Origin: Methanobrevibacter gottschalkii DSM 11977 | Lineage (GTDB): Archaea > Methanobacteriota > Methanobacteria > Methanobacteriales > Methanobacteriaceae | Direction of reading: 5' to 3' | NCBI RefSeq assembly: GCF_003814835.1 | Contig: NZ_RKRG01000001.1 | Location: 1-64,000, forward strand | Length of the DNA: 64,000 nucleotides | Made by a program: the position numbers and the translations under genes | In this document: positions 6,505 to 56,806 of the stretch, one piece after another | How the letters are laid out: each line of letters starts with the position of its first letter | Numbering within the stretch: the stretch's first letter is position 1 | Notes under the pieces: model-generated | Seen by the model: the letters and a program-made list of their open reading frames with translations, nothing else | Database searches by the model: none | Told to the model about the DNA's origin: nothing

Positions 6505-6604
6505 TATACTTCCTCAAATAAAAACAACTTAACAATGCCTTTTCCTTAATATTACATCACATCAATACATATTTAAATTACATATTCTTTGAAATATAGA
6601 AATT

Positions 6605-7840
6605 TTAAATAGAGTATAAATTTCCATAGTTAAATAACTTGATATCATCTGGAACTTCTTTTATTATATTTTTAGTATCAAAAATTATTGCTTTTTCCAT
6701 TTTATCTTTAATTAAATCATAATCCATGTTTTTAAATTCATTATGATCACATAATACTAAAATTAAATCCGCACCATTAACTGCAGTACCTAAACTTACA
6801 AAATTAGGATTATCAATGTGAGGATCATGTATAGAAATTTCATACTTTGAACATAACTTAGCGATTATTTCATATGATGGGCTTTCCCTATCATCCCCAA
6901 TATTACCTTTATAAGAAACACCCAAAATTGCAATTTTACCTTTCGAAATAATTTTTTCAACATTTTCACATACAAAATCTGGCATGGATTTGTTTGTATC
7001 ACGTGCTAATTTAATAATATGGGCAGTTTTAGGTGCTTTAGCATAAATAAAGTAAGGATCAATTGCAAGGCAATGCCCTCCAACACCTGGACCAGGTGAA
7101 TGTAAATTAACCCTTGGATGTTTATTAGCCATTTCAATAACATCTAATACATTAACACCAATTTCAGTACAAATTTTAGTAAGTTCATTTGCAAGTGCAA
7201 TATTAACATCCCTAAATGTATTTTCCATACATTTAGATAATTCTGCGGTTTTTGCCTCAGTAAGTATTAGCTCTCCTTCAACAAACTGATCATAAACTTC
7301 ACTAGCTTTTACTGCACATTTTGGTGTTACTCCCCCAATGATTCTATCATTATGAATTAATTCATCAATAATTTTGCCAGGGATTACTCTTTCAGGACAA
7401 TGTGCAAGGAATAAATCCTCACCAATAATAAAACCAGCATTTTCAAATATAGGTTTAATCACATCATCAGTAGACATAGGAGCAATAGTAGATTCAATGA
7501 TAACAGTATTACCTTTTTCAATATAAGGTAAAATTGATTTACATGCAGTTGTAACATAACTTAAATCACAACTATAATTTTCAACAATATACGGTGTTGG
7601 TACAGTAATTATAAATGCATCAGCTTTTTCAGGGATTAAACTAGCTCTATAAACATTTGATTCAATCGCTTTTTTAATAATTTTCGAAATTCCTGGTTCT
7701 TCTATATGAATAATACCTTTATTCAAATTATTTATCATATCTTCAAAGATATCCACTCCAATAACTTCACAATGATTAAGACTAAATAGTGCTGCAGTTG
7801 GAAGCCCAATGTATCCTTGACCCAAAATACATATCTTCAT
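6605..7840 (-). CDS. wecC: UDP-N-acetyl-D-mannosaminuronic acid dehydrogenase-type UDP-sugar dehydrogenase
   Basis: The 411-aa, NAD-dependent UDP-sugar dehydrogenase carries out two successive oxidations of the sugar C6 to a uronate; UDP-ManNAc is the likely substrate, giving a precursor of acidic surface glycans. Visible are the Rossmann GQGYIG (7-12), TVPTP (79-83), ESTIAP (116-121), the central-domain segment around NANELTK-like ALANEL (215-220), and the catalytic Cys257 in GVGGHCLAIDPYF. Length is normal for WecC/MMP0706-type enzymes. The ATG has the ribosome binding site AGGAGAT, which overlaps the target duplication of a MITE inserted directly upstream (7851-8038). It heads the leftward glycosyltransferase run. 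Substrate choice (ManNAc versus Glc or GalNAc) rests on similarity only. Confidence 0.9.
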   Translation of the reverse strand: MKICILGQGYIGLPTAALFSLNHCEVIGVDIFEDMINNLNKGIIHIEEPGISKIIKKAIESNVYRASLIPEKADAFIITVPTPYIVENYSCDLSYVTTACKSILPYIEKGNTVIIESTIAPMSTDDVIKPIFENAGFIIGEDLFLAHCPERVIPGKIIDELIHNDRIIGGVTPKCAVKASEVYDQFVEGELILTEAKTAELSKCMENTFRDVNIALANELTKICTEIGVNVLDVIEMANKHPRVNLHSPGPGVGGHCLAIDPYFIYAKAPKTAHIIKLARDTNKSMPDFVCENVEKIISKGKIAILGVSYKGNIGDDRESPSYEIIAKLCSKYEISIHDPHIDNPNFVSLGTAVNGADLILVLCDHNEFKNMDYDLIKDKMEKAIIFDTKNIIKEVPDDIKLFNYGNLYSI

Positions 7841-7842
7841 TT

Positions 7843-7850
7843 TATCTCCT
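7843..7850 (-). promoter_or_regulatory. wecC ribosome binding site made from a MITE target duplication
   Basis: TATCTCCT here (minus strand AGGAGATA, 3-10 bases before the wecC ATG) is matched by TATTTCCT at 8039-8046 on the other side of the MITE (7 of 8 bases). The Shine-Dalgarno therefore lies within the duplicated target site. Confidence 0.65.
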
Positions 7851-8038
7851 TGACCATTTCAAAAACTTAAGTGATTTAAATATTAGTAAGTTTTTTTATT
7901 AAAAACTTTTTCTTAATAATTGCCAACCCAATGGGCATTATTTTTATAATTTAAATTTAATTAATCCGTTATTTTGAAAAATTTAAATGAATAAATTAAT
8001 CATACCAATTATTTATCACACAAATTTTTGAAAGAACC
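7851..8038 (+). mobile_element. MITE family A, copy 1 (188 bp)
   Basis: Imperfect terminal inverted repeats: left GACCATTTCAAAAACTTAAG, right (reverse complement) GGTTCTTTCAAAAATTTGTG. It is flanked by TATCTCCT and TATTTCCT, read as an 8-bp target duplication. The interior aligns over nearly its whole length with the reverse complement of the element at 19248-19421, including the identical stretches TTATTTTTATAATTTAAA and GTTATTTTGAAAAATTTAAA. There is no coding capacity. The ends match those of the larger IS relics at 11471-14149 and 55638-56732, the probable source of transposase. Confidence 0.8.
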
Positions 8039-8176
8039 TATTTCCTACAAATAATAAATATTATACAAATATTTTTTCATTGTATAGTATGTTATTTTGT
8101 TTAAAAAGTATTTATAATTTGTGAAATAATCCTTTATGAGACTGTCAATTTGTTAGGACTTTTTTGATTTTCTATC

Positions 8177-9705
8177 GTGTACCAGCCAAAATTAGTTTTT
8201 TGATTTTGTGCTGGAAAATTTTTGACTTATTTTTTCTTATTTTTCATTGATTTATTTTAATTTTGCTTTAATTTAAATGTATTCTTATTAACATTGTATA
8301 ATTTAACTATAGTAATTTTTAATTTGTTAAACTGGATTTTAACTGATTTTATAATAGTTAAATTTATATACTTTGTTTTATATAGTTAATATTAACTATT
8401 AGTTATTTTGGAGTTGTATTTTATGGTTTTAAGAAAAATTGATAAGAATCAGAGTAAAATTAAGTATTGTAACTTTTAGATAGCAACATTCCCGGAAGAC
8501 CATATTTCTCGTTTTGTGGGTGGATTTTTATTGATGAAATTTTATCCAATGTTAAATATCAAAGAACCTAAAAAGAAGAAAGGACGAGAGTCCTTGCCTA
8601 TTGATTCCATGTTAAAATTGCTTGTTTATGCTAAAATAGAGCATGTGGAAAGTGCCAAGTATTATTGCAGATAATGGCAAGGTACCATGATGTTTACAGG
8701 TTTGTTTTATGATGATGTACAACCATAAGAACGCTCAATTCAAAGATATAGAAGAGAATATGGCTGTTACTTTGAAGTATTGCTTCAAATGACCTTAAAA
8801 AAAGAGGCTTCAGATTTGAAATTAACAGATTTTAATCAATGTTGCCCTTTGATGGAACTATTAAAAAAAGCATTACAATTCCAACAACAATGTTATCACA
8901 AAAAAAGATAACTCAAATATTGCTCAATTACTTCAATGGACTACATATTAGCCAGGAAAAGCTTGATAAACTTCAAAAACCCACCCAAAGAATATTGGAA
9001 ATATAAAGACATTGAATGTCAAAGATAAAATAGAACTATTAATATGATATTGAAACACAATTCACTTAATACCCAATAGAAAGCAATCCAAAGAAAAAAT
9101 AGGGAAATTAAATCCCAATCAATATCATAAAGACCATTTCGAATACAATTATGAATTAGATGCATTCAAATGCCCAGAAGGAGAATATTTACACTTCTTT
9201 GGAAAATATATTGAACCACACAAAGACCCAGAAAAACCAGACAAAATAAAAAGAATTTACAACAATTATGAAGCATGTAAAAAAACTGTAAAGAACGAAA
9301 CAAATGTTGCTCAGCCTCACAAACACACAAAACCATCACAGAATACGGATCATAAAATGCAAAAAGCAATGAACCAAAAAATGGAAAAAACAAGAATATA
9401 AAAGACGAATATGCTAAAAGATCAAGCGTTGAAGGACCCATTTTGGAAAATATTAAAAGAACAATTCCAAATAGAAAAAGAAGCAGTCATCGGAAATGAT
9501 ACGAACAGAAGATAAGACTATACTTAGATGCATTAGCATACAATCTAATCAGATTATACAACATTAAACAAGAAAATAGAAAATTCAACAGAAGATTTAG
9601 AAAATTTCTGCGAAAAAGAATCAATAATCCACCAATTAAAACTCGATGTAACACTATTTTAATTAAAAATCAACAGACCTGCCAAAAACTAACTTTGGCA
9701 GACAC
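8177..9705 (+). mobile_element. IS1182-like insertion sequence relic
   Basis: The left end GTGTACCAGCCAAAATTAGT and the right end (reverse complement GTGTCTGCCAAAGTTAGT) form imperfect terminal inverted repeats around the transposase remnant, giving about 1.53 kb, close to the size of IS1182-type elements. The same terminal sequence, GTGTCCGCCAAAA, caps the MITEs at 10330-10434 and 14287-14389. I could not see a clear target duplication. 8047-8176, between this element and the MITE, holds nothing I recognise. Confidence 0.7.
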
Positions 9706-11400: not shown

Positions 11401-11868
11401 ATTGTTCCCTTTAATATATAATTTATTGTTTAATTATTGTATGTTATTGTTATAATATTTATTCATTATTTGCTCTTTCAAAAACTTGTGTGATTTTTTT
11501 ATTTTCATTTTTTATGTTCCAATAGTTTAGTTTTAGCATGAATCGGCTTAAAAGACCTGATTTTATTTTCATTGTTCTTTTTATGTGTTTTGGGAATACT
11601 TTTTGGAAGATGTTTTCGATTTTTATTATTCGTGGATTGAATATTCGTGTTTTCAAGGTGGTTCGTTAATTTTTTGAAGTAAATGGATGATGAATTTTCC
11701 ATTAGGATTTTGTTTGTGAAGTTGTTTTGAGGGTATTTTTTATCAATTAAGATATCACGTGGTTTTTTAGCATCATTGAGTGTTTCTGCATCCAGTATTT
11801 TTATAAAATATCTTGTTTTAAATCGGTTAGGATTTCTTTTTCTTCGTCTGTTAGTTGGTTTTTTATCT

Positions 11869-11876
11869 AAAATATT
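11869..11876. repeat. Target duplication of the inner IS, left copy
   Basis: AAAATATT is repeated exactly at 13135-13142, directly flanking the inner IS. An 8-bp duplication is the size reported for ISM1 of Methanobrevibacter smithii. Confidence 0.8.
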
Positions 11877-13134
11877 TAGGGGTCTGAATTTTTTAGTTTT
11901 CAGATAATTGTTGTATGGCTGTTTTTGAGTTGAATCCTTGCGATATGATTAGTGCTCCTAAAAATACATTTAGATATACTGTTTTTTCAACTGATTCAGG
12001 TGTGTATTTGTGTATTTGCCTCATGTTGAGGCCTTGTTTGAGTAATTTGAAGAAATCTTCAATTTACCCCTTATTGGTTTGAATTTTTTTCCAGTTGTCT
12101 AGTTTTTTTAGTAATTCGTGTTTTAAGTTGTTGTAAAATCTTTTTTCGGTCAAGATTTTCTTTGTTTTCTTAAATACATGTAATGGGTAGGATAATTGAT
12201 TATCTAGTTTGGTTCTTTTGAAATTGTCTCTTGGAAAAAATGAAAGGAACGATTTTATATTTGCTAATTCCTATTTGATAGTTTTTTATAGCTGTAATAA
12301 CCTTTGTCAAAAATTATTGTGTCTCTTTTTTGAATTATACGTCTTTTTTGGAGATTTTCCATAACGGTGTCAAAAAGTTTTGCATCATTTGGGGGCTCCA
12401 GAATGGATTAAAATACAAACGGGATTCATACTATCGTAATCAATGACAACAGTTGCTTTAAATCCAATATAAAATCCTTTTGATGATGAATAACTCCATT
12501 TTAAATTCAAAGTTTCTAGATGTTCTTTTTTCTTTTTATTTCTGTAGAAATTAAAATCTAAGTCCACTGGTGTGGCATCCACTATAAAAGTCTTTTTTCC
12601 TCTTCTTTTAACACGATTTCTTGAATTTAAAATGCGATTTAACGCTTTAATGAGATTATCAGAGTTCTGAAGTGATAAAAGTTTTGTAAACCTGATCAGC
12701 ACTCCAAACTTCAGAAATATTAAAGTATTTACGAAGCTTTTCTTTAGATTCAAGCTCACTTAAGATGAATGGAATATCTAAACCAAAGAACATGCTGATA
12801 AATATAATTTTAAAACTAAATACTTGTTAATTCAAGTTTTTAAAGCCAAATGAAGCTAAAATTTCAGAAGTTTCTCGGGAATCCATAATTTTAAATATTT
12901 CTTTCAACAAAATGTAATTTGGGTCTTTAATATCTAAATTTAATCTGTGTTTCATTTTTATCACTAAATAAACTTATGTAACACATAATATTTAAATTTA
13001 TCGATATTAAGACCCTTTTTATTAAAATTAACACTAACAAAAATGTATTTTTACAAACCATACGAAATAAATGAAAAAAATACGAAAAATAGAACAAATT
13101 AAGCCGAATTTTAATCAAAAAAATTCAGACCCCT
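11877..13134 (-). mobile_element. Inner insertion sequence nested in the outer IS
   Basis: The terminal inverted repeats are TAGGGGTCTGAATTTTTT on the left and AGGGGTCTGAATTTTTTT on the right (reverse complement). A perfect 8-bp target duplication (AAAATATT) flanks the 1258-bp element. It interrupts the outer transposase right after codons for KRFKEYF, so it arrived later. Size and duplication length recall ISM1, but this identity is not proven. Confidence 0.85.
11900..12955 (-). pseudogene. IS4/ISM1-like DDE transposase of the inner IS, decayed
   Basis: From the ATG at 12955 it reads MKHRLNLDIKDPNYILLKEI, then ASFGFKNLN, an in-frame stop near 12826, FSFKIIFISMFFGLDIPFIL, a frameshift, and then the longest open part (about 12720-12385) with KTFIVDATPVDLDFNF (first catalytic Asp), GFKATVVIDYDSMNPVCILI and HSGAPK. 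It goes on as NDAKLFDTVMENLQKR, TIIFDKGYYSYKNYQ (second Asp), and IEDFFKLLKQGLNMRQIHKY (catalytic Glu). The three DDE positions remain recognisable in spite of at least three lesions. The segment 12385-12759 is the middle of this gene, not a separate one. Confidence 0.8.
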
Positions 13135-14286
13135 AAAATATTCTTTAAATCTTTTGTTTATGTTTTGTTTTACATGGAAATTTGCAGAAAATGATGTTTT
13201 ACTTTTAGTTTTATCTAATTGCTTCTCGATATATCGTGTTTTAAGTCCTGTTCCTATTGATATTTTCTTTTGATTTCTTAGTGATTCGTTTAAGAATTGA
13301 TAAAAGGGGGTTTTGGAATCCTCTGATTCGATTAAATTTTGACTGAAACTATAAGTATTCAGTTTTAACGTCGAAATAATGTTAAAAACATAAATATCCA
13401 AATTCCATTTATTTTAACCCAAAGACTGTCAAATAAGTAATAACCAGAATAAGTCCGATTTTAATTAGTCAAATTGAATAATTTAGATGCCAATAATAAT
13501 GTTTTTCTATGCTTTGATGTGAAATTTCAATGTATGTGTTTGATTGTTTTAAGTCAAATCGTATTTTTTATGGAGTCCATGTTCCATTAAATTTGGATAT
13601 AAATTTTCAATACAATTAAATAACAGGTATATGTAATATTCGAATTAGAATAAACAAGGTGAACGATAAAATCAGTATAAGAAGACTTTACCCCATTTTT
13701 TTGCATTTTATATTTTTGAATAGTGTATGTTTGTTCTCCAATTCTTAAAAAAATTAGTTTTCTTTCGTAAGTTTCCCATTTTTTAACAAGTATTTTTTTG
13801 ACTTGCAACTTGGACAAATTACTAATTTTATTTTTCAAAATAAGTTTTACCCATTTGTTTCCAGTCTAATAAGATTATCCTCAATATTTTCACAACCAAA
13901 TCGGGAAAAGATCATCAGATTGATGGAATTCAGAAAACTCTGCAATAAAATCGGAAAGTTTATATTCTTTTAACTCCATACAATCATATGGAGCTTTAAT
14001 ATTCTTATTAATCATATTAATATTTAAGTTCCACCTTATATATTAATTTTACTACTTCTAAATTAAAAATAAAGAAAAAATAGAACGAAAAAAAATCGTG
14101 CCTCAAAAACTAGTGAAAATCCAAATCACACAAGTTTTTTGAAAGAGCCACTATAAATGAAAAAATACATTAAAAACACAAGCAAAAACCTGCCATTCCA
14201 TACTAAAATGGCATAATCTTCTGGAATACAATATACATTAAAAATAGACATGGAAAGTGCAATATATATAATAAAAAGAAGATTGG

Positions 14287-19239: not shown

Positions 19240-19247
19240 TTAAATAT
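19240..19247. repeat. Target duplication of MITE A copy 2
   Basis: TTAAATAT is repeated exactly at 19422-19429, flanking the MITE. Confidence 0.85.
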
Positions 19248-19421
19248 GGCTATTTCAAAAACTTGTGTGATAACTAATTTTTCGGTTAATCAATTCATTT
19301 AAATTTTTCAAAATAACAGATTAATTAGCTTTAAATTATAAAAATAACTCCAAAATATTAAGAAAATGTTTTGAATAAAAAACTTGCAGATATTTAAATC
19401 ACACAAGTTTTTGAAAGTGCC
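19248..19421 (-). mobile_element. MITE family A, copy 2 (174 bp)
   Basis: The ends GGCTATTTCAAAAACTTGTG and (reverse complement) GGCACTTTCAAAAACTTGTG are inverted repeats of more than 20 bp. A perfect 8-bp target duplication TTAAATAT surrounds it. Its reverse complement aligns with the element at 7851-8038. It lies between the DUF6270 gene and the ABC permease; nothing else is recognisable in 19199-19504. Confidence 0.9.
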
Positions 19422-55558: not shown

Positions 55559-55637
55559 TTTTATCAACACACCACTGTTTTATTATTTAATACATAAAAA
55601 ATACATAGAATATAAAAGTTTGTTTTTATACGAACAG

Positions 55638-56732
55638 GGTTCTTTCAAAAACTTGTGTGATTTTTTTGTTTTCATTTTTTATGTTCCAACAGTTTAGTTT
55701 TAGTATGAATCGGCTTAAAAGACCCGATTCTATTTTCATTGTTCTTTTTATGTGTTTTGGGAATACTTTTTGGAATATATTTTTCGATTTTTATTGTTCG
55801 TAGATGGAAAATATTCGTGTTTTCAAGGATGGTTCGTTAATTTTTTAAAGTAAATGGAATGATGAATTTTCCATAGGATTTTGTATTGTGAAGCTGTTTT
55901 GAGAGTATTTTTTATCCAATCAAGGACTTCTGATTCGACTAATTTTTGACTGAAACTATAAGTATTCACTTTAACATGGAATAATGCTAACATAATATCC
56001 AAATTTCATCTATTTTAACCTATAGACTGTCGAATAAATAAGTAATAACCAGAATAATTCCAATTTCATAGTTAAATTGATAATTAGATTCCAATAATAT
56101 GTTTTCTATGATTTGATGTGAGATTTCGATGTATGTGTTGATTGTTTTTAAGTCAAATCATATTTTATGGAGTCCATACTCCATAAATTTGATACAAATT
56201 CTCAATACAACCAAATAACAGGAAAATGCAATATTAGAATTAGAATAAACAAGTGAAGATAAATCTGCATAAAAGACTTTGCCGCATTTTTGCATTTATA
56301 TTTTTTGAATAATGCATATTTGTTCTCCAATTCTTAAAAAAAGATTAATTTTCTTTCGTAAGTTTCCATTTTTAACAGTGCTTTTTGACTTACAGCTTGG
56401 ACAAATTACTAATCCTATTTCAAAATATGTTTTACCATTTTTTCCAGTCAAATAATGATTATCAGCAAATATTTTTCACACCCGAATAGAGAAAAGATCA
56501 TCAGATTGACGGAATTCAGAAAACTCCGGAATAAAATCGGAAAGTTTATATTTTTTTAACTCCATACATCCATATGGAGCTTTAATATTATCTTTAAACA
56601 TATTAATATTTAAATTTCACTCCATATATTAATTTTACTACTTTTAAATTAAAAATAAAGAAAAAATAGAACAAAAAAATCGTGACTCAAAAACTAATGA
56701 AAATCCAAATCACACAAGTTTTTGAAAGTGAC
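55638..56732 (-). mobile_element. Outer IS relic, copy 2 (internally deleted)
   Basis: The ends GGTTCTTTCAAAAACTTGTG and (reverse complement) GTCACTTTCAAAAACTTGTG are inverted repeats. It aligns with 11471-14149 but lacks the inner IS and about 310 bp around its insertion point (joined near 55922). The transposase remnant runs leftwards from MELKKYKLSDFIPEFSEFRQ at 56568, with many lesions. No target duplication is visible. Confidence 0.8.
55641..56568 (-). pseudogene. Transposase remnant of outer IS copy 2
   Basis: Pieces such as MELKKYKLSDFIPEFSEFRQ, CPSCKSK, NSNI and, near the other end, FPKHIKRTMKIESGLLSRFI, QVFERT match the remnant at 11459-13979. The central region with part of the catalytic core is deleted and numerous frameshifts exist, so it cannot encode an enzyme. 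Confidence 0.7.
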
Positions 56733-56806
56733 AAATTTTGTGCTGGAATTTAATTAAGGAAAATTATAAATAAAATAAATTTAAATTAGGTTTTAGATTA
56801 ATTGCA

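Follow-up and report, generated by a model that had tools for sequence, protein, structure and literature searches.

A MITE lies immediately upstream of a wecC-like gene of Methanobrevibacter gottschalkii DSM 11977, and the best reading of the sequence around it is that the element inserted at the Shine-Dalgarno of this gene, the site being kept through the target duplication. In the window (the whole stretch of DNA analysed, 64,000 nucleotides), we found AGGAG 5 nt before the wecC ATG (position 7840, minus strand), within GGTCAAGGAGATAAAATG and within the gene-side copy of the probable duplication; the minus-strand junction reads GGTCA-AGGAGATA-AAATG. The proposal of the initial annotation that the duplication includes the ribosome binding site is probably right. 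An insertion at the Shine-Dalgarno is favoured because the MITE family and its partner insertion sequence (IS) both make 8-bp duplications. The “rebuilding” of the site is automatic and needs no special mechanism, since whenever the duplicated target covers a site, one flank necessarily retains it whole, and a non-lethal insertion at a Shine-Dalgarno would be seen only with the site preserved.

The MITE family and its autonomous partner

The element upstream of wecC is bounded by inverted repeats (24-bp TIRs) of the form GGYNCTTTCAAAAACTTGTGTGAT (Table 1). It had previously been described as a MITE of 188 bp; a TIR-bounded interspersed repeat is indeed present, but by family consensus its length is 187 bp, the difference arising because base 7851 had been counted as part of the element. 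That base (T) is either an insertion or an altered base of the duplication. No ORF of 90 aa or more was found inside 7852-8038 in any of the six frames, 187 bp being too short to encode a transposase, and the internal sequence gave no Rfam match.

Table 1. Features at the wecC-like gene, in window coordinates
Feature	Position	Strand	Description and basis
Nucleotide-sugar dehydrogenase gene (wecC-like)	6605..7840	-	Intact, 411 aa; TIGR03026 E 1e-121; PF03721/PF00984/PF03720
wecC-side copy of probable 8-bp target duplication	7843..7850	-	Minus strand AGGAGATA, the Shine-Dalgarno; 7/8 with distal copy
Extra base between target duplication and TIR, ambiguous	7851		Family ends, GG(C/T)NC or GACC, directly abut the duplication
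MITE copy	7852..8038		187 bp: 174-bp family plus 12-bp and 1-bp internal insertions; 20-copy family alignment, genome copies
Left TIR, GACCATTTCAAAAACTTAAGTGAT	7852..7875	+	Pairs with 8015-8038; pattern matches
Right TIR, minus strand reads GGTTCTTTCAAAAATTTGTGTGAT	8015..8038	-	Pairs with 7852-7875; pattern matches
Distal copy of target duplication	8039..8046	-	Minus strand AGGAAATA, decayed
Remaining unique upstream DNA	8047..8139	-	93 bp, single copy in genome; from 8140 on, matches to repeats and IS sequence

We searched the complete set of contigs of this genome (1,876,577 bases, 6 contigs) and found five near-full copies of the MITE including the one at wecC, the other four being 80-81% identical over nearly the whole length, besides fragments. 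The TIR pattern, with up to 3 mismatches, occurred 34 times in the genome versus once for a reversed control pattern. Two congeners (G055 and G061) contributed at least 15 further copies, near identical in G055, and an alignment of 20 copies (174-187 bp) gave a consensus of 174 bp. Relative to this consensus, the wecC copy carried 12.1% substitutions versus ~3% in the other four copies of the genome, and it is therefore an older insertion or a member of another subfamily. Among the 17 other copies readable at both ends, the 8-bp duplication was perfect in 7, matched at 7/8 in 4 and was not clear (7/8 or better) in 6; none of the 17 lay within an ORF of 80 aa or longer, except that one overlapped the end of such an ORF by 11 bp. 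One G055 copy, with a perfect GAACAAAC duplication, sits 20 bp ahead of the start codon (ATG) of an ORF of 192 aa, so that insertion at a gene start is not unique to wecC within the family. Taken together, these repeats have the properties of MITEs: they are short, TIR-bounded, dispersed and multicopy, with a target duplication of fixed length (8 bp) and an autonomous partner with the same ends.

Two further copies were observed in other settings. A second one in the window (19242-19417), with a perfect 8-bp duplication (TTAAATAT), has a DUF6270 gene on one side and on the other the start of a gene for an ABC-2 transporter permease, whose GTG is 74 bp away. In G061 (L295, C124), a diverged copy is found ~0.8 kb upstream of a wecC homologue, and this different position relative to the gene makes it probably an independent insertion.

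The partner is an IS of 1358 bp in four sister species (G033, G059, G060 and G056), whose ends match those of the MITE and whose ORF of 405-409 aa is intact. Its TIRs are identical to the MITE family consensus over 19 inner bases, and an 8-bp duplication was seen where both flanks were readable (G033, G059), with at least three copies in G033 bordered by the direct repeats AATTTATC, AACGAAAG and AAAATATT. Like ISM1/ISH6/ISL3-like insertion sequences, it combines a DDE domain (PF13610) and zinc-ribbon matches with TIRs and 8-bp duplications; unlike ISL3 and ISH6, its transposase scores below both curated equivalog cut-offs (ISL3, 30.6 bits, cut-off 180; ISH6, 19.3 bits, cut-off 240), and these matches relate it weakly to the ISL3/ISH6 type. 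It may resemble the ISM1 group, although at 1358 bp it differs in length from ISM1 of Methanobrevibacter smithii (~1.2 kb). Our literature search found no paper on ISM1 in Methanobrevibacter.

In the M. gottschalkii genome itself, stops interrupt all close relatives of the partner IS that share its ends. One diverged transposase relative (32% identity; C5:908-1765) has an open reading frame, so that immobility may not be complete. The window holds two degenerate partner elements with the same TIRs: one of ~1.1 kb (55637-56733), its transposase broken by stops, and another at 11470-14149, split by ~1.3 kb resembling a different transposase element that is also degenerate.

The probable target duplication and insertion history

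The flanks TATCTCCT (7843-7850) and TATTTCCT (8039-8046) match at 7/8 only with a 1-nt offset, the extra T on the wecC side, and at 3/8 in the strict register of the family. The 8-bp target duplication claimed in the initial annotation is thus upheld in part: agreement of 7/8 or better with one offset had a chance of 0.43% among random pairs in the window and 1.3% in simulations of flank composition, but the offset is required. We consider the flank match to be a probable, not proved, target duplication. A single substitution plus a single indel across 8 bp would be no surprise in a copy of this age, and the single difference between the two flanks fits a history in which the wecC-side copy would have been kept by selection and the distal copy left free to drift. 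The near-match might instead be due to chance, the MITE having inserted beside the Shine-Dalgarno, its true duplication having decayed or been lost by recombination and the Shine-Dalgarno never having been duplicated. The strict-register value and the 6 of 17 other copies lacking a clear duplication speak for this explanation; we regard it as distinctly improbable given how rarely so good a match arises with one offset and that the match falls at most 1 base from the expected place.

An empty site was sought with the joined flanks in 139 genomes of the family, one genome per species, and none was found; nor did the 93-bp stretch beyond the distal copy of the duplication have a match adjoining a wecC in these 139 genomes. 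We also compared wecC upstream regions in 29 further genomes of the genus and ~40 GTDB loci, genome loci in reverse orientation covering the downstream side only. Matches in relatives ended at or near the ATG or ran only into the AT-rich leader, and the alignment of the distal flank with the promoter region that is conserved at wecC in relatives was no better than that of shuffles. Farther upstream, 8140-9680 is a remnant of a different IS; part of it (8185-8480) is 97% identical to C2:167640-167936 elsewhere in this genome and has matches in many genomes of the genus.

Under the preferred reading of an insertion at the Shine-Dalgarno, the non-autonomous MITE would have been mobilised in trans by the 1358-bp zinc-ribbon/DDE (ISL3/ISH6-like) IS of the genus, which has the same TIRs, and would have entered a target with an 8-bp stagger, 10-11 bp ahead of the ATG of the wecC-like gene. 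If the stagger covered the Shine-Dalgarno, it would have left the copy AGGAGATA, since kept, by the ATG and the copy AGGAAATA, since mutated, beyond the element; with a Shine-Dalgarno beside the ATG, translation could begin as before. Transcription of wecC, we infer, would probably read through from an upstream promoter, adding a leader of ~195 nt with a long weak hairpin. The insertion would be old, close transposase relatives in the genome now being broken. We assign this account as a whole a probability of about 0.8. It is supported by a multicopy, TIR-bounded family with an intact partner IS, by 8-bp duplications, by the low probability of a chance match, and by an intact wecC ORF with low dN in a genome whose own partner-IS copies all contain stops. 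It is weakened by the one substitution and one indel that the duplication alignment needs, by the lack of an empty site in the 139 genomes and by a distal flank without significant similarity to the wecC promoters of relatives.

The wecC-like gene and its transcription

The name wecC stands at the level of the subfamily, with 407 bits to TIGR03026 (cut-off 190), but the product does not reach the equivalog cut-offs for UDP-N-acetylmannosamine dehydrogenase (WecC; 394 bits, cut-off 459, and 377 bits, cut-off 750). Its best named relatives are all from Methanobrevibacter. The window gene has no stop or frameshift, and its dN versus relatives is 0.10 (dS >1.6, saturated). The genome carries a second wecC-like gene (C1:430075-431304), its protein 79% identical to that of the window gene and its upstream TATA/SD layout similar to the wecC upstreams of relatives.

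A de novo motif search of upstream regions picked up the repeats themselves, and the box-A-seeded promoter model that we applied was weak. In this DNA (~80% AT) its best score was equalled by 44% of shuffles for the MITE and by 50% for the flank. The TATA boxes that the initial annotation had suggested looking for inside the element thus did not stand out from shuffles, and its statement that the old promoter had been moved 196 bp is unsupported: the figure is arithmetic only, and TATA-like motifs in neither the MITE nor the flank exceed shuffles. The unique DNA at 8047-8139 is the only stretch in which an older promoter could sit before other IS remnants start. Folding of the leader RNA exceeds that of shuffles only slightly (z -1.45), and AGGAG is not part of the TIR helix.

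Our guess, at roughly even odds, is that the wecC transcript would read through from the upstream flank. The MITE might itself supply the promoter, a box-A-like stretch such as AATTATAAAAATAA near 7944-7957 (minus strand) starting wecC transcription: the element is the DNA nearest the gene, the stretch is kept in nearly all family copies, and bacterial MITEs with internal promoters are known (PMC10969869). Since almost half of the shuffles reach the best score of the element under a weak model in AT-rich DNA, we hold this proposal to be tentative and somewhat unlikely. We find it less likely again that the insertion parted wecC from its promoter, leaving it weak or silent, and that the second wecC-like gene took over; such a copy exists, with a relative-like upstream layout, but the window gene is undamaged and its dN low, a signal most of which may predate the insertion. 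The initial annotation proposed that the glycosyltransferases behind wecC would likewise be driven from within or across the MITE; the gap of 100 bp between wecC and the glycosyltransferase gene (6505-6604) has its own TATA-like stretch and could hold a promoter for the glycosyltransferases.

Relation to known elements

Prokaryotic MITEs such as Correia, RUP and MITEAba12 include some that lie just upstream of genes and may carry promoters (PMC10969869). Like these, the wecC MITE is short, non-autonomous, TIR-bounded, multicopy, intergenic and presumably mobilised in trans; it differs in its archaeal host genus, which is absent from the genera named in the passages of that review considered here (PMC10969869). 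Unlike promoter-bearing MITEs, its promoter motifs are no better than shuffles and its internal sequence is without an Rfam match. That the family carries a working archaeal promoter which took over wecC and the surface-glycan cluster, as an archaeal counterpart of promoter-bearing Correia elements, we consider quite unlikely.

The insertion is a known kind of event with an ordinary mechanism; our literature search found no paper on a MITE insertion at a Shine-Dalgarno. It illustrates cleanly that, where the target duplication is roughly as long as a ribosome binding site, an insertion can hit such a site and still leave it intact. The analysis also names a MITE family of gut methanogens and the autonomous element that partners it. 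Were the MITE to drive transcription as well, it would offer an archaeal case, open to testing, of surface-glycan genes under MITE control.
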